35,240 nucleotides of DNA, taken from NCBI GenBank assembly GCA_945869965.1, contig CAMBRC010000044.1:1-35240 (forward strand), read 5' to 3'. Below, piece by piece: positions 10,302-35,240 of the stretch. Under the pieces are notes generated by a model that saw only the letters and a program-made list of their open reading frames with translations, was not told the DNA's origin and searched no databases. The stretch is from Asaia bogorensis. GTDB lineage: Bacteria; Pseudomonadota; Alphaproteobacteria; Acetobacterales; Acetobacteraceae. Each line of letters starts with the position of its first letter. The first letter of the stretch is position 1. A program made the position numbers and the translations under genes.

Positions 10302-10967
10302 CTAGGTTCCGGGCGGTGGCGGGGCAAGCGCAGCGGTGCGGGTCTGTCCTGGCGCTGGCGGTAACAGGTGGCGGACCAGGATCTCGCGCAGCATCGCCTC
10401 TTCGCCCGCCGCATCGCCCTGCGGCAGGTAGGGCAGGCGGCTGGTGATCGCCAGGTCGGCCATGCCGTGCACTATCGCCCAGGAGGAAGCGACCATGGCC
10501 CGGCCCTCCGCGCTCGCCTCCGGGTTGGCCCCAAGCACCGCGGCAACACCGGTCACCAATTGGCTGAACGCGGCGCGGGCCGCGGCGCAGAGGGCTTGGT
10601 CATCGCGGTCGGGTCGGTCGGAGGCGAAGATCAGCCGGAACAGTGCCGGGTTGGCGCGGGCGAAATCGATGTAGCCCAGCCCCGCGGCAACCAGCTGCGC
10701 CTGCGCGTCAGGGGCCGCGCCCTGCTTGCGCCGCGCCTGGGTGGCGAGGAATCGCTGGTAGCCGATGGCGGCCAGCGCGGTCAGCAAGCCGCGCGCATCG
10801 CCAAAATGGTGCGCCGGCGCGGCATGGGACACCGCGGCGCGCCGCGCGCAGCCGCGCAGGGTGAAGCCTTCAACGCCATGCGCGCGCAACTCGGCCTCGG
10901 CCGCATCGAGCAGGGCGGCCCGCAGGTCGCCGTGGTGGTAGCGATCCTTCGTGGTGGGGCGTGGCAT
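10302..10967 (-). CDS. TetR-family transcriptional regulator
   Basis: 221-residue regulator. The N-terminal helix-turn-helix is seen in YHHGDLRAALLDAAEAEL...GFTLRGCARRAAVSHAAPAHHFGD, the usual TetR pattern in which the recognition helix ends near H-F. The C-terminal ligand/dimer part contains FARANPALFRLIFASD, common in a TetR_C subfamily. The start at 10967 is supported by GGAGG five bases upstream. The gene is divergent from the ABA4-like membrane protein at 11070, and the gap holds a palindrome and direct repeats suited to an operator. It may also be transcribed with the flavin monooxygenase downstream. Ligand unknown. Confidence 0.88.
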   Translation of the reverse strand: MPRPTTKDRYHHGDLRAALLDAAEAELRAHGVEGFTLRGCARRAAVSHAAPAHHFGDARGLLTALAAIGYQRFLATQARRKQGAAPDAQAQLVAAGLGYIDFARANPALFRLIFASDRPDRDDQALCAAARAAFSQLVTGVAAVLGANPEASAEGRAMVASSWAIVHGMADLAITSRLPYLPQGDAAGEEAMLREILVRHLLPPAPGQTRTAALAPPPPGT

Positions 10968-11069
10968 CTGGCCTCCGGATATCCTGAGCAATGGTCTTCG
11001 CGCATCATGTTGACATTGGCAAGATGTGGCGGCAAGACTGGTCTTGACAGTGCAAAGATGGAGGGGACG
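10968..11069. promoter_or_regulatory. Divergent promoter/operator region of the TetR gene
   Basis: In this 102-base gap a direct repeat TTGACA-N5-AAGATG occurs twice with a 34-base period (11010-11026 and 11044-11060). Between the two units is an inverted repeat, CAAGAC-TG-GTCTTG, at 11033-11046. If the first TTGACA is a -35 box, the palindrome covers the -10 position 17 bases later, a layout that fits repression. The match to a -10 hexamer is poor. Binding by the adjacent TetR protein is inference. Confidence 0.45.
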
Positions 11070-11516
11070 ATGCCGCCGGAGGATATGTTCAACCTGGCCA
11101 ACACGCTGGCACTGGCCGGATGGGCCGTGCTCGTCCTGGCACTCTGGGGGCCGCGCTGGTTGATGCAGGCGGGCGGCTTCGTGCTGCCTGCGTTTCTGGG
11201 CTGCCTTTACGCGGGCCTTGTCCTGGCCTTCTTTGCCGGCGCCGAGGGGGGCTTTTCCAGCCTGGACGCCGTTGGCCGCCTGCTCTCCGGCCGCGAAATG
11301 CTGTTGGCGGGCTGGCTCCACTTCCTCGCCTTCGACCTGTTCGTCGGCGCCTGGCAGGTTCGCACCGCGCGGCGGGACGCCCTGCCGCGCCTGCTCGTGG
11401 TGCCGTGCCTCGCCCTGACCTTCCTGTTTGGCCCTGCCGGGCTGCTCGCCTTCCTGGCCCTCCGTGCGGCGATCCGCGCCACCCGCGCGCCGCTCGCCGC
11501 GGGAGCACCAGCATGA
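11070..11516 (+). CDS. ABA4-like (DUF4281) membrane protein
   Basis: 148-residue integral membrane protein with about four helices, resembling the ABA4/DUF4281 family. Characteristic segments are FNLANTLALAGWAVL near the start, LLAGWLHFLAFDLFVGAW in the middle and LLVVPCLALTFLFGPAGLLAFL near the end. Plant ABA4 takes part in neoxanthin formation; the bacterial relatives are uncharacterised. Candidate ATGs are at 11058, 11070 and 11085. I prefer 11070 because GGAGGGG (11060-11066) is a suitable distance away. Its stop overlaps the start of the next membrane protein gene (ATGA at 11513-11516), so the two are probably one operon under the divergent TetR protein. Confidence 0.82.
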   Translation: MPPEDMFNLANTLALAGWAVLVLALWGPRWLMQAGGFVLPAFLGCLYAGLVLAFFAGAEGGFSSLDAVGRLLSGREMLLAGWLHFLAFDLFVGAWQVRTARRDALPRLLVVPCLALTFLFGPAGLLAFLALRAAIRATRAPLAAGAPA

Positions 11517-26566: not shown

Positions 26567-27502
26567 TCATATGACGCAGTTGAGCAGTTCGGTGCCCGCC
26601 GCGAGGCGGCTTATGTTCTCGGCAGCGATGGTGAAGGAGCGGTCGAAGGTGCCGCTGGTGACCCAGGCAACGTGCGGGGCGACGACGACGTTGTCCTGTT
26701 TTAGCAGCGGGTTGTCGGCTTGTGTTGGCTCGCGGTCGAAGACATCCAGGCCGGCGGCGGCGAGGTGGCCGGTGGCTAGGGCCTGGAGCAGGGCGGGTTC
26801 GTCGACCAGGCCGCCGCGGGCGGTGTTGATCAGGATGGCGCCGGGTTTCATGCGGGCGAGGGCTTGGGCGTTGATCAGGCGGGTGGTTTCGGCGGTCTGC
26901 GGGATGTGCAGCGAGACGATGTCGGATTCGGCCAGCAAGGCGTTGAGATCGCGGTATTCGTAGGGCAGGGCGGGCTTGTGCGCGCGGGCGGTGTAGAGCA
27001 CGCGGCAGCCCATGGCGGCGAGGATCGGGGCGAGGATGGCGGGCACGGCGCCGAAGCCGACGAGGCCGACGATGCGGCCGCCGAGTTCGCCCAGGCGGTC
27101 TTGGACCAGGGGCGGTGTGGCCCAGGTGCCGGCGCGCAGGGCGGCGTCGAATTGCGGCAGGCGGCGCAGGGTGGCCAGCATCAGGAGCAAGGTCATTTCG
27201 GCGACGGCGCGGGAGTTGGTGCCGGGCAAGTTACAGACGGCAATGCTGCGGGCCTTCGCTGCTTCGAGATCAATGGTGTTCACGCCGACGCCGATCTTCT
27301 GGATTAGCTTGAGGCGCGGGGCGGCGGCAATCACCTGGGCGGTGCAGGGTTGCAGCACGTGCCAGAGCACATCGGTGTCGGGCAGGGTGGCGAACAGGGC
27401 TTCGTCGTCGCCCTCGGCCACGCAGCGCAGGGACAGGCCGGGCAGGGCGGCGAGGCGGGATTTCAGCGCCGGGCCGGCATTGTAGTGCAGCAGGACGTTC
27501 AT
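26567..27502 (-). CDS. D-2-hydroxyacid dehydrogenase
   Basis: 311-residue NAD(P)-dependent D-isomer-specific 2-hydroxyacid dehydrogenase, reducing 2-oxo acids such as hydroxypyruvate or glyoxylate, or the reverse. The nucleotide-binding loop is VGLVGFGAVPAILAP; the third glycine of G-x-G-x-x-G is replaced by Pro, a variant seen in some members. The catalytic Arg is in NTARGGLVDEPALL, the Glu in DVFDREP, and the His in VAPHVAW. The ATG at 27502 overlaps the stop of the enolase-like gene (ATGA), so it is the third gene of a coupled kinase-enolase-dehydrogenase unit. Substrate not determinable; hydroxypyruvate is one candidate. Confidence 0.9.
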   Translation of the reverse strand: MNVLLHYNAGPALKSRLAALPGLSLRCVAEGDDEALFATLPDTDVLWHVLQPCTAQVIAAAPRLKLIQKIGVGVNTIDLEAAKARSIAVCNLPGTNSRAVAEMTLLLMLATLRRLPQFDAALRAGTWATPPLVQDRLGELGGRIVGLVGFGAVPAILAPILAAMGCRVLYTARAHKPALPYEYRDLNALLAESDIVSLHIPQTAETTRLINAQALARMKPGAILINTARGGLVDEPALLQALATGHLAAAGLDVFDREPTQADNPLLKQDNVVVAPHVAWVTSGTFDRSFTIAAENISRLAAGTELLNCVI

Positions 27503-28788
27503 GGTTTGGAGCGGCCCAGCATGCTGCCGCCGGCGAAGCGGGCGAGCGGGCCGAGGGCTTCCTCGATGCGTAGGGCCTCGTTCCACTTGGCCATGCGTTC
27601 GCTGCGGGCGAAGCTGCCGACCTTGAGCTGGCCGCAGCCCCAGCCGATGGCGAGGTGGACGATGGTGGTGTCCTCGGTCTCGCCGGAGCGGGCGGAGACG
27701 ATGCCGGCGTAACCCACGGCTTTTGCGGCGTCCCAGGCGGCCTTGGTCTCGGTCAGGGTACCGCGCTGGTTCGGCTTGATCAGGACGGTGTTGGCGGCGC
27801 CGGTGGTGGCGGCGGCGTGGATGCGGGCGGCTTCGGTGACGAGGAAATCGTCGCCGACGACCTGGATTTTCTGGCCGTAGGCTTTGGTGAAGGCGACGAA
27901 GCCGGCCTGGTCGTCCTCGGCCAGCGGGTCCTCGATCGAGACGATGGGGTAGCGGTCGATCCAACGCCCGAGCATTTCGCACATGCCGTCGCTGTCCAGT
28001 TCGCGGGCTTCCAGGCCGAGCTGGTAGCGCCCGTTGCGGCCGAATTCGCTGGCGGCGATGTCGAGCGCGATGGCGACCTGGTCACGCGGCATGTAGCCGG
28101 CGCGCTCGATGGCGCGGACGAGCATTTCCAGCGCCTGTTCGTTGTTGGTGAAGGCCGGCCACCAGCCGCCCTCGTCGGCCACGCCCTGGAGCAGGCCGGC
28201 TTCTTTCATGAGGAGGCCGGCGTGGCGATAGACCTCGGCGGTCCAGTCCAGTGCCTGGGCGAAGTTCTTGGCCGCCGGGCAGACGATGAGGAAGTCCTGG
28301 ATGTCGACGCGGCGGCCGGCATGGGCGCCACCGCCGAAGATCTGGATTTGGGGGAGCGGCAGGAGGTCGGCGGTGTCGCCGCCGAGGTGGCGGTAGAGCG
28401 GTTTGCCGGCTTCGGCGGCCATGGCATGGGCGTTGGCCATCGAGACGGCGAGGATGGCGTTGCCGCCGAGGCGGGTCTTCGCCGGGGTGCCGTCGAGCTT
28501 GATCATGGCGGCGTCCAGCCCGGCCTGGTCGCTGGCGTCGCGGCCGAGGATTTCCTCGGCGATCTCGCCAGTGACGGCCGCGACAGCCTGGGTCACGTCG
28601 AAGCCGCCAAAGGTCGGGCCGCCATCACGTCGGTCCAGCGCTTCGCCGCTGCCGGTGGAGGCGCCGGCCGGAGCAATGGCGCGGCCGACTGCGCCGCCGG
28701 CCAGCATCACTTCGGCCTCGACGGTGGGGCGGCCGCGGCTGTCCCAGACGCGGCGGCCGTGGACGTAGACGATCTCGGTGTCGCTCAT
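27499..28788 (-). CDS. Divergent enolase-like protein lacking the conserved His
   Basis: 429-residue member of the enolase family, full length. Retained features: the mobile loop GASTG (Ser44; the preceding residue is Ala rather than Ser), GGGAHA, ADEGG, the metal ligands in ALDIAASEFG, SIEDPLAEDD and VGDDFLV, the catalytic Lys of IKPNQRGTLTET, and the Lys of GQLKVGSFARSER. The motif normally S-H-R-S-G-E-T-E-D reads SARSGETED, with Ala366 in place of the conserved His. In true enolases this His contacts the substrate. A specialised paralogue is therefore likelier than the glycolytic enzyme. It overlaps both neighbours by ATGA, with the kinase upstream and the dehydrogenase downstream. It may dehydrate a phosphorylated acid. 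Confidence 0.85.
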   Translation of the reverse strand: MSDTEIVYVHGRRVWDSRGRPTVEAEVMLAGGAVGRAIAPAGASTGSGEALDRRDGGPTFGGFDVTQAVAAVTGEIAEEILGRDASDQAGLDAAMIKLDGTPAKTRLGGNAILAVSMANAHAMAAEAGKPLYRHLGGDTADLLPLPQIQIFGGGAHAGRRVDIQDFLIVCPAAKNFAQALDWTAEVYRHAGLLMKEAGLLQGVADEGGWWPAFTNNEQALEMLVRAIERAGYMPRDQVAIALDIAASEFGRNGRYQLGLEARELDSDGMCEMLGRWIDRYPIVSIEDPLAEDDQAGFVAFTKAYGQKIQVVGDDFLVTEAARIHAAATTGAANTVLIKPNQRGTLTETKAAWDAAKAVGYAGIVSARSGETEDTTIVHLAIGWGCGQLKVGSFARSERMAKWNEALRIEEALGPLARFAGGSMLGRSKP

Positions 28789-29792
28789 CGGCGCAATTCT
28801 TCTTCCCAGGCGTGGCGCACGTCCTGCAGGCGATCGACGGGATCGGCCAGCAGGGCGCGGGCGGTGCGGCGCACGGTGGCGCGCGGTGCTTCGGTGGTGA
28901 TGTACTCCACCGGCGACTTGCCATCCACCCGGGCCAGCAGCAGGCCGGGCAGCAGGCGGGCGGCGCGGGCCTCTACGGACTCGGGCGGCTCCCAGGTGAC
29001 CTCCGCGCGGTAGGCGGCGGCCAGCGCGGTGAAGCAGGCGAGGAAGCCCTGGGTTGCGGCGGGGGTCCACAGGCATTTCAGCAGCAGGTGGTTGAGGCAG
29101 AAGGCGAGGTCGAAGGCGGGATCGCCCCACCAGGCGCATTCGGCGTCCAGGAAGACCGGGCCGTCGGGGCCGGCCAGGATGTTCTTCGGGCTGACATCGC
29201 CGTGGACCAGGGCGTGCTTGTTGGCCTGGGTGGCGGCGACCAGGGCGTGCAGGGCGGCGGCGCGGTCAGGGTGCTTTGCGGCGGTGGCGACCAGGTAGGG
29301 TTCGAGGCGGATGTCGAAGAAGATTTCGTCGGTGGGGAATCGGCCAGGAATCGATGAATCAGTTGATGTCGCCGCATGGACTCGACCGACTCGCTGTCCG
29401 ACTCGAGCTGCGAATCTCGAGTCAGCGAGTCCATCGCGGAGTTGCGCTTTCCACAGCGGATAGGTTTCGGCCGGTAGATAGGTCATCGCCAGGGCGCCGG
29501 CTTCCTCGTCCTGGCCCAGCAGGCGCGGCACCGCGCCGGGAGCCGCGGCGGCGGCCACGCGCATCCATTCGGCCTCGAACCGGTTGCGGCCCACCGGCGC
29601 GCGCCAATCGGCGGCCACTTTCAGCTTGCCCAGCGCTCGCTTCACGCAGATCGCGCCGTCCGGCAGGTCGATGCGCCAGATGTCGGACGACACGCCGCCG
29701 GTGAGCTGTTCGCCCAGCGTGCCCCGCCCCACGGCGATGCCCATGCGGCGCAGTGCGGCCAAAAGGTCAGGAGGTGGCGCAATCGCGGTCAT
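28785..29792 (-). CDS. APH/choline-kinase-fold phosphotransferase
   Basis: 335-residue kinase of the aminoglycoside phosphotransferase fold. The N-lobe has a Gly-rich turn (LTGGVSSDIWRI) and the ATP-binding Lys in ICVKRAL. The catalytic loop is HGDVSPKN (His197, Asp199, Asn204), and the metal-binding Asp is in FLDAECAWWGDPAFDLAF. Because it precedes and overlaps the enolase-like gene, it is more likely to phosphorylate a small hydroxy acid or sugar acid than an antibiotic. The start at 29792 has a weak AGGA. A 59-base palindromic stretch inside the gene (29376-29434) does not break the frame. It is divergent from the GMC oxidoreductase, only 47 bases away. Confidence 0.85.
   Translation of the reverse strand: MTAIAPPPDLLAALRRMGIAVGRGTLGEQLTGGVSSDIWRIDLPDGAICVKRALGKLKVAADWRAPVGRNRFEAEWMRVAAAAAPGAVPRLLGQDEEAGALAMTYLPAETYPLWKAQLRDGLADSRFAARVGQRVGRVHAATSTDSSIPGRFPTDEIFFDIRLEPYLVATAAKHPDRAAALHALVAATQANKHALVHGDVSPKNILAGPDGPVFLDAECAWWGDPAFDLAFCLNHLLLKCLWTPAATQGFLACFTALAAAYRAEVTWEPPESVEARAARLLPGLLLARVDGKSPVEYITTEAPRATVRRTARALLADPVDRLQDVRHAWEEELRR
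29376..29434. repeat. Palindromic GACTCG-rich stretch within the kinase gene
   Basis: Outer arms ATGGACTCG and CGAGTCCAT (29376-29384, 29426-29434) and inner arms GACTCGAG and CTCGAGTC (29400-29407, 29416-29423) are perfect complements. The left half repeats GACTCG three times. The kinase frame continues through it (GLADSRFAARVGQRVGRVHAA), so it is coding, yet the sequence looks unlike the codon choice around it. Confidence 0.7.
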
Positions 29793-29839
29793 CCGGGCAT
29801 CCTGTGCGCCGTCGAGACGCCAGGCAACGGGGAGTCGTC
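29793..29839. promoter_or_regulatory. Short divergent gap between kinase and GMC genes
   Basis: Only 47 bases separate two divergent start codons, so the promoters must overlap each other or the coding ends. GGGGAG before the GMC start and AGGATG before the kinase start are the probable ribosome-binding sites. I see no clear -35/-10 pair and no obvious palindrome. Confidence 0.4.
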
Positions 29840-31456
29840 ATGGAAACCATCGAGGCTGATTATGTCGTGGTTGGGGCTGGGTCCGCCGGGTGCGTGGTGG
29901 CCGCGCGGCTGTCGGAGGATCCCGGCGTGCGCGTGGTGGTGCTGGAGGCCGGTGGGCCTGACAGAAATATCTGGATCCATGTGCCAATCGGCTATGGCAA
30001 GACCATTGTCGATCCCAGCGTGAACTGGATGTACGAGACCGAGCCCGATCCTGGGGCAAATGGACGAAAACTGTTCTGGCCGCGCGGCAAGGTGCTGGGT
30101 GGGTCGTCGAGCATCAACGGGCTGTTGTATGTGCGCGGGCAACCGGCGGATTACGACCACTGGCGGCAACTGGGTAACCAGGGCTGGGCGTGGGACGACG
30201 TGCTGCCGTATTTCAAGCGCAGCGAGGGCCGGGTGGGGGCAGGGGACGATGCCCTGCGTGGGCGCGACGGGCCGCTGAGCGTGATCGATTTCGCGGCACG
30301 CTCGCGGCTGTCCGAGGCCTATGTGGCTTCGGCTGAGGCGGTCGGGATTCCGCGCAACGAGGACTACAACGGCGCGGAGCAGGAAGGCGTCGGCTACTAC
30401 CAGAACACGATGAAGAACGGCCGGCGCTGGTCCGCGCACCGGGCGTTTCTCAAGCCGGCGATGAAGCGGGCGAACCTGCGGGTGATCACCCATGCCCAGG
30501 CCGAGCGGGTGCTGATGGCCGGCAAGCGGGCCGTGGGGGTGTCCTATCGCCAGGGTGGCCAGAGCCATACGGTGCGCGCGACGCGGGAAGTGATCCTGTG
30601 CGGCGGCGCGATCAACTCGCCGCAGTTGCTGATGCTGTCCGGCATCGGGGCGGGGGCGCATCTGGCCGAGAAGGGGATCGAGGTGGCGCACGACCTGCCG
30701 GGTGTCGGGCAGAACCTGCAGGACCATTACCAGGTGCGCTTCGTCTACAAGTGTACCGAGGCGATCACGGTCAACGACATCATGATGTCGCCGGCCAGGA
30801 TGGCGATCATGGGCATCCAATACGCCCTGTTCCGCACCGGCCCGCTGACCGCCAGCGCCGGCCAGGTGGGCATCTTCACCAAGAGCCGGGCGGAGCTGGA
30901 GGCGCCGGACATCCAGTTCCACTTCATCGGCTTCTCCGCCGACCGGCCGGGCGAGGGGCTGCACAAGTTCTCCGGATTTTCGCAGAACGTCTGCCAGTTG
31001 CGGCCGGAGAGCCGGGGCGAGATCCTGCTGAAATCCGCCGATCCGCTGGCGCCACCGGCGATCCATCCCAACTACCTCTCGGCCGAGCTCGACCGGACGG
31101 TGCTGCTGGCCGGGCTGAAGCTCGGGCGCCGGATCGCGGCCCAGCCGGCGATGCGCGCCTTCATCGACAGCGAATACCTGCCGGGCGAGGCGGTGCAGAG
31201 CGATGACGAGATGATGGAGTATGCCCGCACCTATGGCGGCACGATCTTCCATCCGATTGGCACCGCCAAGATGGGCCAGGACGCGATGGCGGTGGTGGAT
31301 GACCAGTTGCGGGTGCACGGGATCGCCGGGCTGCGCGTGGCAGACGCCGCGGTGATGCCGACGATGGTCAGCGGCAACACCAACGCCGCCTGCATCATGA
31401 TCGGCGAGAAATGCGCTGATCTGGTGCGGGGACAGGCGTTGGCGCGGGCGGCTTAG
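29840..31456 (+). CDS. GMC-family oxidoreductase (choline dehydrogenase-like)
   Basis: 538-residue FAD-dependent glucose-methanol-choline oxidoreductase, oxidising a primary or secondary alcohol. The FAD Rossmann motif GAGSAG is at 12-17, followed by the ribose-binding Glu in VVVLEAGG. The GMC signature is in WPRGKVLGGSSSINGLLYVRG and GGAINSPQLLMLSGIG. The active-site pair is His471 (TIFHPIGTAKMG) and Asn515 (SGNTNAACIMIGEK), a 44-residue spacing as in choline oxidase. The start at 29840 has GGGGAG upstream. It is first of four plus-strand genes, with the SelA-like gene 10 bases after its stop. Substrate unknown; no betaine genes are near. Confidence 0.92.
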   Translation: METIEADYVVVGAGSAGCVVAARLSEDPGVRVVVLEAGGPDRNIWIHVPIGYGKTIVDPSVNWMYETEPDPGANGRKLFWPRGKVLGGSSSINGLLYVRGQPADYDHWRQLGNQGWAWDDVLPYFKRSEGRVGAGDDALRGRDGPLSVIDFAARSRLSEAYVASAEAVGIPRNEDYNGAEQEGVGYYQNTMKNGRRWSAHRAFLKPAMKRANLRVITHAQAERVLMAGKRAVGVSYRQGGQSHTVRATREVILCGGAINSPQLLMLSGIGAGAHLAEKGIEVAHDLPGVGQNLQDHYQVRFVYKCTEAITVNDIMMSPARMAIMGIQYALFRTGPLTASAGQVGIFTKSRAELEAPDIQFHFIGFSADRPGEGLHKFSGFSQNVCQLRPESRGEILLKSADPLAPPAIHPNYLSAELDRTVLLAGLKLGRRIAAQPAMRAFIDSEYLPGEAVQSDDEMMEYARTYGGTIFHPIGTAKMGQDAMAVVDDQLRVHGIAGLRVADAAVMPTMVSGNTNAACIMIGEKCADLVRGQALARAA

Positions 31457-31466
31457 GAGCGGCGCG

Positions 31467-32630
31467 ATGAGCATCTATGCGGAACTCGGCGTGCCGGAGA
31501 TCATCAATGCCTGCGGCACGGTCACCCGCTTGTCAGGCGGGCTGATGGCGCCCGAGGTGGCCGAGGCGATGCGCCAGGCGTCGTTGGCCTGCGTCGACAT
31601 GGTTGCCCTCCAGGCCGCGGCCTCGCGCATCATCCGCGAGGCCACCGGTGCGGAGGCCGGGATCGTTACCTCGGGCGCGTCCGCCGCCGTCCTGCTCGGC
31701 ACCGCCGCCATCCTTGCTGGTCTTGACCCCGCGCGGATGAACGCGCTGCCGGAGGTGCCGGACGGGCGGCGGGAGTTCCTGATGGTGCGCAGCCAGCGCA
31801 ACATGTACGACAAGGCGCTGCTGGTCGCCGGTGCCCGCATCGTGGAGATCGGCATTCCCGACCGCTATTCCGGCCCTGGCGTGCGCGATGCCGCCCCCTG
31901 GGAACTCGAAGCCGCGATTACGAAGAACACCGCTGGCATCTACTATCTCGCCGGCGCGCAATCGAAGCCGTCGTTGCGCGAAATCGCTGCGGTGGGCCGG
32001 GAGCATCGCCTGCCGGTCCTGGTCGATGCCGCCGGCCAGCTTCCGCCCGCCGCCAACCTGCACCTGTTCCTCGACGAGGGCGCGGACCTCGTGTGCTTCT
32101 CCGGCGGGAAGGCGATCGGCGGCCCGCAATCCAGCGGCATCCTCGCCGGCCGCGCCGACCTCATCGCCAGCGCCCTGTTGCAGATGCTCGACCTCGATAT
32201 CTACGAGGATGCCTGGTCCCCGCCGGCCGAGTTCGCCCCGCTGCGCCAGATGCGCGGCCTGCCGCACCACGGCATCGGGCGGTCGTGCAAGGTGGGCAAG
32301 GAGGAGATTGCCGGGCTGTGCGCGGCGCTGAAGCGCTTCACCTCTACCGACGAGGTTGCGCGACGCAATACATGGCTCGCCCGGCTGCAACGCATCGCCA
32401 CCCTGGCCGGCGGCGAGGGCCTCTCCATTGAGGGCGGTGCGATCCCGATCCTGAACCTCAAGACCGCTGATCTCGACACTGCCATGGCGTTGGCGCGCAT
32501 ACTCGCAGCTGGCAGCCCGGCCATTCATTGCGGGCTCGGCCGGCGGGACGAAGGCATACTCACCTTTAACCCCGTCTCCCTGACCGACTCCCACGCTGAC
32601 GAAGTCGGCCGGCGCCTCGCAGCCCGCTAG
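31467..32630 (+). CDS. SelA-like PLP-dependent enzyme (DgaE-type lyase)
   Basis: 387-residue fold-type I PLP enzyme of the SelA-like group that includes D-glucosaminate-6-phosphate ammonia-lyase and related lyases. The start YAELGVPEIINACGTVTRLSGG is typical, and VTSGASAAVLLGTAAIL binds the PLP phosphate. VDAAGQLPP holds the ring-binding Asp, and Lys215 in FSGGKAIGGPQSSG is the Schiff-base lysine. True selenocysteine synthase is unlikely, because the protein is short and no sel genes are nearby. A likely role is beta-elimination on an amino sugar acid or a hydroxy amino acid. AGGAG overlaps the stop of the GMC gene, which supports co-transcription. Confidence 0.85.
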   Translation: MSIYAELGVPEIINACGTVTRLSGGLMAPEVAEAMRQASLACVDMVALQAAASRIIREATGAEAGIVTSGASAAVLLGTAAILAGLDPARMNALPEVPDGRREFLMVRSQRNMYDKALLVAGARIVEIGIPDRYSGPGVRDAAPWELEAAITKNTAGIYYLAGAQSKPSLREIAAVGREHRLPVLVDAAGQLPPAANLHLFLDEGADLVCFSGGKAIGGPQSSGILAGRADLIASALLQMLDLDIYEDAWSPPAEFAPLRQMRGLPHHGIGRSCKVGKEEIAGLCAALKRFTSTDEVARRNTWLARLQRIATLAGGEGLSIEGGAIPILNLKTADLDTAMALARILAAGSPAIHCGLGRRDEGILTFNPVSLTDSHADEVGRRLAAR

Positions 32631-32674
32631 ACTTCCCGTCGTGCCACGGCACGGACCACAAGAAGGAGCACGCC

Positions 32675-33973
32675 ATGGACGGTTTCATGCAATCGGTCGG
32701 CCACTACATGCTGGACCACAAGACCAAGGGTATGCCCGGCGGCATCGCGCCCTTCCCGATGGCCGAGATTGCGTCGAAGGGCTGGAACGTCCTGCGCGAG
32801 GACCTGCCCATGCCGCTCGCCGTGCTGAAGAAATCTGCCATGGAGCACAACTCCGCCTGGATGCGCGATTTCGTCGCCCGCTCCGGCGCGGTGATCGCCC
32901 CGCACGGCAAGACCACCATGGCCCCACAGCTCTTCGGCCAGCAAATGGACGACGGCGCCTGGGCCATCACGGTTGCCACCGCGCAGCAGATCGCCGTCGC
33001 CCGCGATTTCGGTTTCTCCCGGATCATCCTGGCCAACCAACTCGTCGGCAAACAGATGATCCGCTACGTGCTGGACGAACTGAAACGCGATCCCACGCTG
33101 GATTTCTATTGCATCGTCGATTCCGAAGCCAACGTCGCCCAGCTCGCAGCCGCCACCCGCGCGGCCAATATCGGCCGCCCGCTACAGGTTTTTCTCGAAG
33201 GCGGCTGGCAGGGCGGCCGCACCGGCGTGCGTGACATCGCAACCGGTCTCAAGGTCGCCCGCGCGGTCAAGGCCGCCGCCCCCTATCTCGCCCTGCGCGG
33301 CGTCGAGGGCTTCGAGGGCCTGACCCCTGCCGACCGCACCGCCGCCGAAACCCAAGTACGCGGCTTCCTCGACATGCTTGTCCACCTTGCCCAGGCCTGC
33401 GAAACGGAAGACCTGTTTTCGCCCGGCGAAGTGATTCTCACCGCCGGAGGCTCAGCTTTTTACGACATGGTGCTCGCCCGCTTCACCCATTCCGGCCTCA
33501 AATCACCCACGCGCATCATCACCCGCAGCGGCTGCTACATCACCCACGATTCCGTCCGCTATCGCCGTTTCTTCACCGAAATAACTGACCGCACCCCGGA
33601 CGCGGCCCAAGGCGGCGGCCTGCTCTCGGCCATCGAGGTCTGGGCCTATGTCCAATCCCGCCCCGAACCCGACAAAGTCCTGCTCACCGTCGGCGCCCGC
33701 GACCTCGGCACCGATGACCGCCCCATCGCCGAAACCTGGTTCCGCCCGGGCTCGAACATGACGCAGCCGGAACCCGCCCCGCCCGGCCACCTCGTCACCG
33801 GCCACAACGACCAGCACACCCACATGACCGTCCCCGAAAACTCCCCGCTCCAGGTCGGCGACATGGTCAGCTTCGGCGTCGGCCACCCCTGCCTCACCTT
33901 CGACAAATGGCAAGTCCTGGTCGTGGTCGACGACGCCTACAACGTGGTCGGCGCGGTGCGCACCTTCTTCTGA
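32675..33973 (+). CDS. D-threonine aldolase/D-serine dehydratase-like enzyme
   Basis: 432-residue fold-type III PLP enzyme (alanine racemase-like barrel) of the D-threonine aldolase/D-serine dehydratase group. The PLP lysine is Lys79 in APHGKTTMAPQ. The C-terminal metal pair His404 and Cys406 in GVGHPCLTFDKW matches the Zn site of D-serine dehydratase. It would split a D-beta-hydroxy amino acid to glycine plus aldehyde, or D-serine to pyruvate plus ammonia. AGGAG stands seven bases before the ATG. It lies 44 bases after the SelA-like gene and 23 before the M81 gene, all on the same strand. Which reaction it runs cannot be decided by eye. Confidence 0.88.
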   Translation: MDGFMQSVGHYMLDHKTKGMPGGIAPFPMAEIASKGWNVLREDLPMPLAVLKKSAMEHNSAWMRDFVARSGAVIAPHGKTTMAPQLFGQQMDDGAWAITVATAQQIAVARDFGFSRIILANQLVGKQMIRYVLDELKRDPTLDFYCIVDSEANVAQLAAATRAANIGRPLQVFLEGGWQGGRTGVRDIATGLKVARAVKAAAPYLALRGVEGFEGLTPADRTAAETQVRGFLDMLVHLAQACETEDLFSPGEVILTAGGSAFYDMVLARFTHSGLKSPTRIITRSGCYITHDSVRYRRFFTEITDRTPDAAQGGGLLSAIEVWAYVQSRPEPDKVLLTVGARDLGTDDRPIAETWFRPGSNMTQPEPAPPGHLVTGHNDQHTHMTVPENSPLQVGDMVSFGVGHPCLTFDKWQVLVVVDDAYNVVGAVRTFF

Positions 33974-33996
33974 GCCAGAGCCGAAAGGATCCCCCG

Positions 33997-35240
33997 ATGC
34001 GCCTCTTCTCCGCCACCCTGGCCACCGAGACCAACACCTTCTCCCCGCTGCCCACCTCCATCGAGGGCTACAAGGAAGGCGTCTGGCTGCGCCCCGGCGA
34101 ACACCCTGCCGACGCCCCGCGGATGTGCACCGCCACCCTCTTCGTCGCCCGCCAACGCGCAAAAGTCGACAACTTCACCCTCATCGAAGGCTCCTGCTTC
34201 GCCGCCTCGCCCGCCGGCACCACCAATCGCGCCGACTACGAAACCATGCGCGACGAAATTCTCGGCCAACTCCGCCAGGCCCTCCCGCTCGACGGCGTGC
34301 TCCTGGGCCTGCACGGCGCCATGGTCGCCCACGGCTATGACGACGTCGAAGGCGACATCATCGAGCGCGTGCGCAACATCGTAGGCCCCGCCTGCATCAT
34401 CGGCGTCGAGCTCGACCCGCACTGCCACCTCACCCTCAAGCGCGTCCGCCTGGCCGACATCACCATCCTCTACAAGGAATTCCCCCACACCGACGTCGTC
34501 GACCGCGCCGAAGACCTCCTCACCCTGGTGCTCAAGACGATCCGCAAGCAAATCAAACCCACCCAGGCGATGTACGACTGCCGCCAGATCGGCTCATACC
34601 CCACCACGCTCCCGCTGATGCGCGCCTTCGTCGACCGCATGATGGCCATGGAGGGGAAAGACGGCATTCTCTCCATCTCCATCGCCCACTGCTTCCCCTA
34701 CGCCGACGTACCCGAAATGACCGGCCGCATCCTCGTCATCACCGACGGCAACAAACCCCAGGCCGACCAGCTCGCCACCGCCATCGGCGAGGAGTTCGTC
34801 TCCATGCGCGGCCGCACCGCACCCGACTACCTCGAAGTCGACGCCGGCATCACCGCCGGCCTCGCCTCGAACGCCTTCCCCGTCGTCATGGCCGACCCCG
34901 CCGACAATGCCGGTGGCGGCGCCGCCTCGGACAACACCACCATCCTCAAGCGCCTCATCGAACGCGACGTCCAGGACGCCGCCCTCGGCCCGATCTGGGA
35001 CCCCATCGCCGTGCGCCTATGCTTCGACGCCGGCCTCGGCGCCACCTTCAACCTGCGCTTCGGCGGCAAGATCGGCCCCACCTCGAACACCCCGGTCGAC
35101 GCCCAGGTCACCGTCATCGGCCTCGCCCGTGACTGCTACCAATCCTTCGGCCCCGCACAGGCCGAACTCGGCGACTGCGCCGCCATCCGCATCGGCGGCG
35201 TCGAAGTGGTGCTGGAAACCAAGCGCAACCAGGCGCTCGG
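33997..35240 (+). CDS. M81-family metallopeptidase (MlrC-like), 3' end outside window
   Basis: The first 414 residues are visible; no stop occurs before the window end, so the gene runs off the edge. It belongs to peptidase family M81, named after MlrC, which degrades linearised microcystin. The N-terminal FSATLATETNTFSPLPT is typical. Likely metal ligands are His106 in LHGAM, Asp140 and His144 in ELDPHCHL, with Glu118 in DVEGD nearby. AAGGA precedes the ATG. M81 proteins often sit beside amino-acid and peptide catabolic genes; here the neighbour is the D-threonine aldolase-like enzyme, so hydrolysis of a small amide or peptide is plausible. Strongly C-ending codons. Confidence 0.88.
   Translation, partial: MRLFSATLATETNTFSPLPTSIEGYKEGVWLRPGEHPADAPRMCTATLFVARQRAKVDNFTLIEGSCFAASPAGTTNRADYETMRDEILGQLRQALPLDGVLLGLHGAMVAHGYDDVEGDIIERVRNIVGPACIIGVELDPHCHLTLKRVRLADITILYKEFPHTDVVDRAEDLLTLVLKTIRKQIKPTQAMYDCRQIGSYPTTLPLMRAFVDRMMAMEGKDGILSISIAHCFPYADVPEMTGRILVITDGNKPQADQLATAIGEEFVSMRGRTAPDYLEVDAGITAGLASNAFPVVMADPADNAGGGAASDNTTILKRLIERDVQDAALGPIWDPIAVRLCFDAGLGATFNLRFGGKIGPTSNTPVDAQVTVIGLARDCYQSFGPAQAELGDCAAIRIGGVEVVLETKRNQAL

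Follow-up and report, generated by a model that had tools for sequence, protein, structure and literature searches.

What an enolase paralogue does between a kinase gene and a dehydrogenase gene is the question raised by a locus of Asaia bogorensis, a member of the Acetobacteraceae. The locus lies on contig CAMBRC010000044.1, of which positions 1 to 35,240 (the whole stretch of DNA analysed, here called the window) were studied. Three genes occupy its minus strand: one for a kinase with the APH fold (28785..29792, 335 aa), one for the enolase paralogue (27499..28788, 429 aa), and one for a D-2-hydroxyacid dehydrogenase of the glycerate/hydroxypyruvate/phosphoglycerate dehydrogenase superfamily (26567..27502, 311 aa). 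The kinase stop codon TGA and the enolase ATG share the ATGA at 28785..28788, and the enolase stop codon and the dehydrogenase ATG share the ATGA at 27499..27502; the sequence bears out this arrangement, which an initial annotation of the window had described. The corresponding 4-bp overlaps recur in 32 (kinase/enolase) and 20 (enolase/dehydrogenase) of 40 loci from the same taxonomic family, according to our own scripted gene calls. Enolase is a textbook single-function enzyme. The reading preferred here, with a probability of about one half, is that the paralogue represents a new enzyme family serving a "phosphorylate, then eliminate" route, in which a dedicated 2-O-kinase would act on acid sugars or 3-O-substituted glycerates and the enolase variant would form phosphoenolpyruvate (PEP) or a substituted PEP.

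The assignment of the central gene rests on a profile model, an alignment, and a clade. The protein scores 476 bits against TIGR01060 (cut-off 300), the NCBI equivalog model for phosphopyruvate hydratase, and is 44-49% identical to 22 canonical enolases compared. It resembles an enolase in profile score, Mg(I) ligands, Mg(II) serine, base lysine, acid glutamate, and arginine and serine contacts, and departs from one at Glu165 and His366. The initial annotation had noticed the second of these departures, and alignment confirms that Ala366 stands in place of the His of S-H-R-S-G-E-T-E-D, that Ala41 replaces the first Ser of P-S-G-A-S-T-G, and that the metal ligands D243, E286, and D313 and the lysines K338 and K389 are retained. 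The change of Glu165 to Asp, a second active-site change, was absent from that account. When the window protein was aligned with 39 same-family relatives (n = 40; the fortieth relative, the divergent copy L071, stands outside the alignment), Ala366 and Ala41 were each found in 40 of 40 sequences, and thus neither is a chance substitution, and Asp165 was found in 39. Lys338, Lys389, Arg367, Ser368, D243, E286, D313, and Ser44 are present in all 40, as are W15, R160, W210, and P339. The general acid Glu206 is kept in 39 of the 40, and His156 is also retained in the window protein.

Which of the altered residues touches the substrate can be judged from the enolase of Chloroflexus aurantiacus. Of the enolase literature used (excerpts of PMC4450660 and PMC6585157), the first describes 2-phosphoglycerate (2-PGA) and PEP as bound by Glu165, Glu206, Lys338, Arg367, and Ser368 and gives Ser43 (yeast Ser39) as the Mg(II) ligand. 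The initial annotation had stated that the His contacts the phosphate substrate, a claim that is not supported by the contacts listed in section 16 of that paper (PMC4450660), among which His366 does not appear. Because Glu165 is in this list and His366 is not, the changed direct substrate contact is residue 165, as far as the excerpt goes. The numbering of the C. aurantiacus enolase matches that of the window paralogue at most of these positions. Glu165 corresponds to yeast Glu168, and on the basis of yeast numbering we identify the Mg(II) serine with the loop's second Ser, which would be Ser44 here. It thus appears from the alignment that the Mg(II) serine is retained as Ser44 in 40 of 40 sequences and that Ala41 is not a Mg(II) ligand. 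Among the papers listed by a literature search, none joined enolase with H373 or His373, the yeast His.

These changes are not confined to one bacterial family. The initial annotation had proposed searching for enolases with Ala at the His site, and a scan with a DNA pattern that encodes this motif found at least 118 genome contig stretches from many bacterial groups, all 118 of which match enolase. Since the search was keyed to Ala366, the informative position in this set is residue 165. Both positions can be read in 108 of the enolases; all 108 have Asp165, no two of these sequences are the same, and 3 coincide with sequences of the family set. By record title, which is given for 80 of the stretches and can be wrong for metagenome bins, the sources include Alpha-, Beta-, and Gammaproteobacteria, Streptomyces, Planctomycetes, Chloroflexi, and others. 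Most proteobacterial members and those of Streptomyces have Ala41, and Ser41 is kept in Planctomycete, Chloroflexi, Rhodococcus, and some other members. A FastTree phylogeny was built from 141 sequences, of which 132 are unique and 8 represent genes already entered under another locus. In it, a split with a support of 0.999 separates the 23 enolases with E165/H366 from all others. These 23 had been chosen as the other or best-scoring enolase copy of their genome, and all 23 have E165/H366. The D165/A366 proteins are a distinct and widespread subfamily of enolases. A PDB sequence search revealed no solved structure of this subfamily; the best match scored 404 bits, compared with about 530-860 bits for full-length same-family members, a rough comparison since the latter scores come from another program. 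The literature search, which took in the beginnings of abstracts and few subscription papers, found no paper on the subfamily or on a pathway that contains it.

The subfamily coexists with ordinary enolase. The genome of the window (4.7 Mb, 97% complete) has two enolases, and the canonical eno for which the initial annotation recommended a search is on contig 49, with E165/H366. At least 42 of 200 same-family genomes have a copy at least 57% identical to the window protein (our own count and a lower bound, since members of the Ser41 type could hide among lower matches), and the other enolase copies of the family, among the matches listed, are 46-52% identical to it. The 40 family loci were taken from 38 of the other 41 genomes with the paralogue. 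Each of the 22 searched genomes that hold pattern loci carries two or more enolases, of which the one with the best Pfam match has E165/H366/S41. The analysis found no complete genome in which the paralogue is the sole enolase, and each of the 22 holds both forms. Of 18 listed plasmid records with an identity of at least 56%, six name the enolase, and all six call it phosphopyruvate hydratase.

Loss of a conserved His could also mean that the paralogue is a degenerate or moonlighting copy with a non-enzymatic role and that its operon is accidental. Two second copies in the family are altered further, L069 with G165 and G206 and L071 with S206 and T366, and their genomes each carry another copy with D165/A366 (L070 and L064, respectively); the two altered copies are possibly decaying or have another role. 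However, the subfamily keeps its catalytic residues, with members that record titles assign to Proteobacteria, Actinobacteria, Planctomycetes, and Chloroflexi, and a kinase accompanies it nearly everywhere, which makes degeneration a very improbable explanation.

This kinase lies directly upstream of the enolase gene, on the same strand, in all 36 family loci with more than 1.3 kb of upstream sequence (37 of 40 overall), and it adjoins the enolase gene in 41 of the 52 loci with enough upstream sequence among the first 80 pattern loci. The initial annotation had named a lack of conservation in relatives as a refuting result, and the gene set is conserved in the family loci; of the two neighbours whose recurrence it proposed to check, the kinase recurs, and the dehydrogenase does so less often. 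At the level of the class, 39 of 385 genomes carry the kinase (E <= 1e-30), 33 carry a paralogue of at least 457 bits, and all 33 are among the 39 (hypergeometric P = 5.6e-42, uncorrected for relatedness). When 20 of the 38 other kinase genomes were examined by locus, 16 had a D165/A366 enolase, which was directly downstream of the kinase in 15 and directly upstream in one (L261). The remaining 18 and the four without such an enolase at the locus were searched genome-wide, and 19 of these 22 have a copy of the paralogue as judged by identity or adjacency; residues were inspected in two of the copies, one being a truncated sequence. In total, 35 of the 38 other kinase genomes have the variant enolase. 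Conversely, 21 of 22 genomes chosen by their enolase have the kinase. In seven of these, from Chloroflexi and Planctomycetes, the kinase gene is unlinked, being elsewhere or on another contig, and a partnership that persists without linkage argues more strongly for a joint function than does linkage by itself. The D165/A366 enolase thus has a near-obligate partner in this kinase.

Several loci at the edges of this distribution have arrangements of their own. The kinase loci L260, L263, and L265 belong to genomes without the variant enolase, and L260 retains the kinase and the dehydrogenase. Beside the unlinked Chloroflexi kinases (L270-L272), the adjacent genes look by eye like those for lumazine synthase and an LLM-class oxidoreductase, and the variant enolase of these lineages adjoins a gidB-family gene (one representative scanned). 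On an Enterobacter plasmid, a "hypothetical protein" (L282:6229-7500) is an enolase homologue, 34% identical to the window protein, with D165, Lys206 in place of Glu, and G366. Its gene is divergent from that of a relative of the kinase, which heads a run that encodes a U32 peptidase, an oxidoreductase, an aminotransferase, and an MFS transporter. A second Enterobacter plasmid (L291:4229-5500) has the same arrangement, judging from annotation.

The kinase matches the Pfam APH domain (PF01636) with 70 bits and otherwise has only a weak fructosamine kinase match; neither Pfam family of glycerate 2-kinases (GarK, PF02595; GckA, PF13660) matches the window kinase. Its score against the MTRK equivalog model (S-methyl-5-thioribose kinase) is 49.5 bits, far from the cut-off of 275. 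An AlphaFold2 model from a 33-row alignment has a pLDDT of 95.8, and the nearest solved fold is that of 5-methylthioribose (MTR) kinase: the best Foldseek match is 2pyw_A (TMq 0.77, E = 2.2e-15), with 2pun_B at TMq 0.79, both at about 15% identity. MTR kinase chains as a group give TMq values of 0.74-0.80 and are followed by hydroxytryptamine kinase, LxmK, and antibiotic kinases. Residues D199, S201, P202, K203, N204, and D216 are invariant across 33 aligned kinases. Elsewhere in the genome of the window there is a GckA-type glycerate 2-kinase (PF13660), whereas PF02595 has no match there. Because of that GckA-type gene, the APH kinase need not serve ordinary glycerate use.

The third gene product is assigned to the D-2-hydroxyacid dehydrogenase superfamily by PF02826 (186 bits) and PF00389 (91 bits). 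Its best NCBIfam model is PGDH, with 218 bits against a cut-off of 454, and none of the 21 models listed reaches its cut-off. The dehydrogenase gene is directly downstream of the enolase gene in 24 of 37 family loci with enough sequence (27 of 40 overall) and adjoins it in 14 of the 65 loci with enough downstream sequence among the first 80 pattern loci. The gene order is dehydrogenase, enolase, kinase in Rhodococcus, again with 4-bp overlaps, and dehydrogenase, kinase, enolase in Sphingobium, so that the order in which the three classes of enzyme come together varies with the lineage. The dehydrogenase is a frequent third member of the module.

A known pathway offers a guide to the chemistry. 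The serine cycle contains a segment of hydroxypyruvate reductase, GckA glycerate 2-kinase, enolase, and PEP carboxylase. Because the gene set resembles this segment, the best guess, for which we infer the reaction order, the 2-O-phosphorylation, the stereochemistry, and the substrate, is a conversion of a 2-oxo acid to a 2-hydroxy acid, a 2-phospho acid, and a phosphoenol. The dehydrogenase would link the 2-oxo acid and its (2R)-2-hydroxy acid, and the kinase would phosphorylate the C2 hydroxyl of the latter. In the enolase variant, Lys338 would remove the C2 proton and Glu206, as general acid, would expel the C3 substituent to give the phosphoenol. Since the two shrunken residues (E165D and H366A) include a direct contact, the substrate may differ from 2-phosphoglycerate on the side of C3 and the leaving group. 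Candidates are a 2-phospho acid that is bulkier at C3, such as a tetronate or other acid sugar, or else 2-phosphoglycerate with a group on the C3 oxygen, from which elimination would still yield PEP. L-2-phosphoglycerate is thought an unlikely substrate because the canonical base Lys338 is invariant. Metabolite repair, a role with an F420 precursor, and transfer of the kind catalyzed by carboxyphosphonoenolpyruvate (CPEP) synthase were set aside for lack of evidence. The scheme of the initial annotation, in which a kinase acts first and an elimination follows, with an enzyme for a 2-oxo/2-hydroxy acid, fits these contexts; a substrate other than 2-phosphoglycerate, as it proposed, is about as likely as not.

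The resemblance to the serine cycle can also be taken literally. The trio would then be, in line with the simpler reading of the initial annotation, a non-orthologous version of the serine-cycle segment built from pathway-specific isoenzymes, leading from hydroxypyruvate to D-glycerate, 2-phosphoglycerate, and PEP, and in some rhizobia to oxaloacetate. The superfamily of the dehydrogenase, which includes hydroxypyruvate and phosphoglycerate dehydrogenases, and the full retention of the catalytic machinery in the enolase variant are consistent with this explanation, and a PEP carboxylase adds to it. In three annotated rhizobial plasmids, ppc, the dehydrogenase gene, and the kinase gene are consecutive on one strand, and a tblastn search of all collected loci found the same PEP carboxylase in two further loci (L288 and L195) and nowhere else. 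The rhizobial protein aligns nearly end to end with the PEP carboxylase of E. coli (485 bits). However, ppc is present in only five of all the loci searched (4 of 13 plasmid regions) and in none of the window's family, a GckA-type glycerate kinase is already available in the genome of the window, and the joint fixation of E165D and H366A across phyla beside a canonical enolase is left unexplained. This explanation is possible but is regarded as less probable than the preferred one.

The three rhizobial plasmids (L278, L284, and L285) have a larger cluster that encodes a cupin, the variant enolase, a VOC protein, a zinc alcohol dehydrogenase, an NAD(P)H-dependent oxidoreductase, an FAH hydrolase, a carboxymuconolactone-decarboxylase-like protein, the kinase, the dehydrogenase, and PEP carboxylase. 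The cluster has the look of a catabolic pathway that has not been described. In L290, the fourth rhizobial region with annotation, the cluster is of the FAH/SDR type and lacks ppc.

A different possibility is that the variant no longer dehydrates its substrate and instead catalyzes another reaction through the same enolate, such as a transfer of the kind catalyzed in phosphinothricin biosynthesis by the enolase homologue carboxyphosphonoenolpyruvate synthase. The change at a substrate-contact residue would suit such an enzyme, as would the D165/K206/G366 form found beside the kinase relative in a biosynthesis-like cluster on the Enterobacter plasmid. Enzymes of the enolase superfamily are also described, in the excerpt consulted, as having proton abstraction alone in common (PMC4450660). 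However, the general acid Glu206 is almost always kept in the family alignment, and no phosphonate gene was noticed among the neighbours that were read, although no search was aimed at such genes. A loss of dehydration is considered unlikely.

The genes around the trio bear on the substrate of the proposed phosphorylation and elimination. In the window, a GMC oxidoreductase gene (29804..31456, plus strand; NF002550, 650 bits against a cut-off of 605) is divergent from the kinase gene. It is followed on the plus strand by genes for a DgaE/SelA-like pyridoxal phosphate (PLP) enzyme (31467..32630; TIGR01437, 148 bits, below the cut-off of 385) and a protein with a D-serine dehydratase domain (32675..33973; PF14031, 66 bits). 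Among the 40 family loci, the GMC oxidoreductase gene is divergent from the kinase gene in 13, and genes like those at 31467-35238 of the window recur as DgaE-like (8), D-serine-dehydratase-like (10), and M81/MlrC-like (8) genes. Others are a D-threonate-kinase-like gene in 6 (95 bits, under the cut-off of 450), a pdxA-family gene in 6 (356 bits, over the cut-off of 290), and an HpcH/HpaI aldolase gene in 7; each of these last three identities comes from one scanned representative of the cluster. Elsewhere in the window (10368-11516) is a gene for a protein with an ABA4-like domain (PF14108) after about 240 unassigned residues.

Other lineages have other neighbours. In Paracoccus and Roseibium, the contexts include an FAH-family hydrolase, SDRs, a LacI regulator, and transporters of the sugar ABC and tricarboxylate types. 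A cupin, a VOC protein, a carboxymuconolactone-decarboxylase-like protein, a zinc alcohol dehydrogenase, and an FAH hydrolase are among the neighbours in Variovorax, Paraburkholderia, Trinickia, Streptomyces, Rhizobium, and Rhodococcus, where a dehydrogenase is often present that belongs to the superfamily of the window's enzyme and is just 29-39% identical to it. The Variovorax VOC protein is homoprotocatechuate-dioxygenase-like, and the FAH hydrolase of the same genus matches the models for HpaG-C and 2,4-didehydro-3-deoxy-L-rhamnonate hydrolase without reaching either cut-off. Outside the family, 145 near same-strand neighbours were reduced to 133 at two per cluster, and 85 of these were annotated by Pfam, a set that omits short proteins and many from annotated clusters and thus undercounts FAH, VOC, and cupin families. 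At most four of the 85 share one Pfam family, so the outside-family neighbours alone do not name a substrate. The D-threonate-kinase-like and pdxA-family genes and HpcH/HpaI aldolases of the family loci, and the sugar ABC transporters, SDRs, and FAH hydrolases of Paracoccus and Roseibium, are hints of a link to acid sugars.

Several observations weigh against the proposal of a new enzyme family with its own substrate. The rhizobial PEP carboxylase is ordinary in appearance and points to PEP, and hence possibly to plain 2-phosphoglycerate. The neighbourhood varies from lineage to lineage and so does not point to any one substrate. The structural model built for the enolase paralogue from an alignment of nine rows is poor (mean pLDDT 67), so the pocket argument is one of homology, and no claim is built on the model. 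Two incomplete kinase genomes, G452 (63% complete) and G488 (78% complete), showed the paralogue as their only enolase. The partnership has exceptions as well: the kinase genomes G536, G516, and G203 have no variant enolase, G536 keeping the kinase and dehydrogenase, and the Chloroflexi genome G591 has the variant enolase and no kinase. The 457-bit threshold was placed post hoc in a gap between scores of 457 and 428, and lower-scoring members of the Ser41 type could be missed in genomes without the kinase.

Nevertheless, the linked changes E165D and H366A, the retained canonical enolase, and the GckA-type kinase elsewhere in the genome favour an undescribed pathway. The chances seem about even, as judged from homology, that the trio is a module with a remodelled enolase pocket, a dedicated kinase, and often a dehydrogenase that acts on a substrate other than plain 2-phosphoglycerate. 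As a speculation, a C3-O-substituted 2-phosphoglycerate would reconcile the remodelled pocket with the PEP carboxylase. If the proposal is true, a new enzyme family that extends over several bacterial phyla is hidden under the name phosphopyruvate hydratase, and genome annotations and models may carry a systematically wrong, or at least untested, assignment for the D165/A366 clade. The fixed double change and the near-obligate uncharacterised kinase point to a catabolic module that is still to be described, and the kinase-enolase pair makes a directly testable two-enzyme assay.

Compared with known systems, the paralogue is closest to enolase itself (EC 4.2.1.11; TIGR01060, PF00113/PF03952), with which it shares full-length homology, the metal ligands, Lys338/Lys389, Arg367, Ser368, Glu206, and Ser44; it differs in E165D and H366A, in its separate clade, in its tie to a kinase, and in the canonical copy alongside. 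The kinase shares the fold and the APH Pfam domain of 5-methylthioribose kinase and other APH-fold small-molecule kinases, but its sequence identity to them is low and it falls far short of the MTRK equivalog cut-off; no methionine-salvage gene was noticed among the neighbours read, none having been specifically sought. The acid-sugar route of DUF1537 D-threonate kinase and PdxA2 proceeds by C4 phosphorylation and is not known to use an enolase. Such families occur near the trio in 6 of the 40 family loci each. The serine-cycle segment has the same order of enzyme classes, and PEP carboxylase joins it in some rhizobia, but the window has an APH/MTRK-like kinase rather than one of the DUF4147/GckA or PF02595 type, an enolase with altered residues, and a GckA-type gene besides in the same genome.

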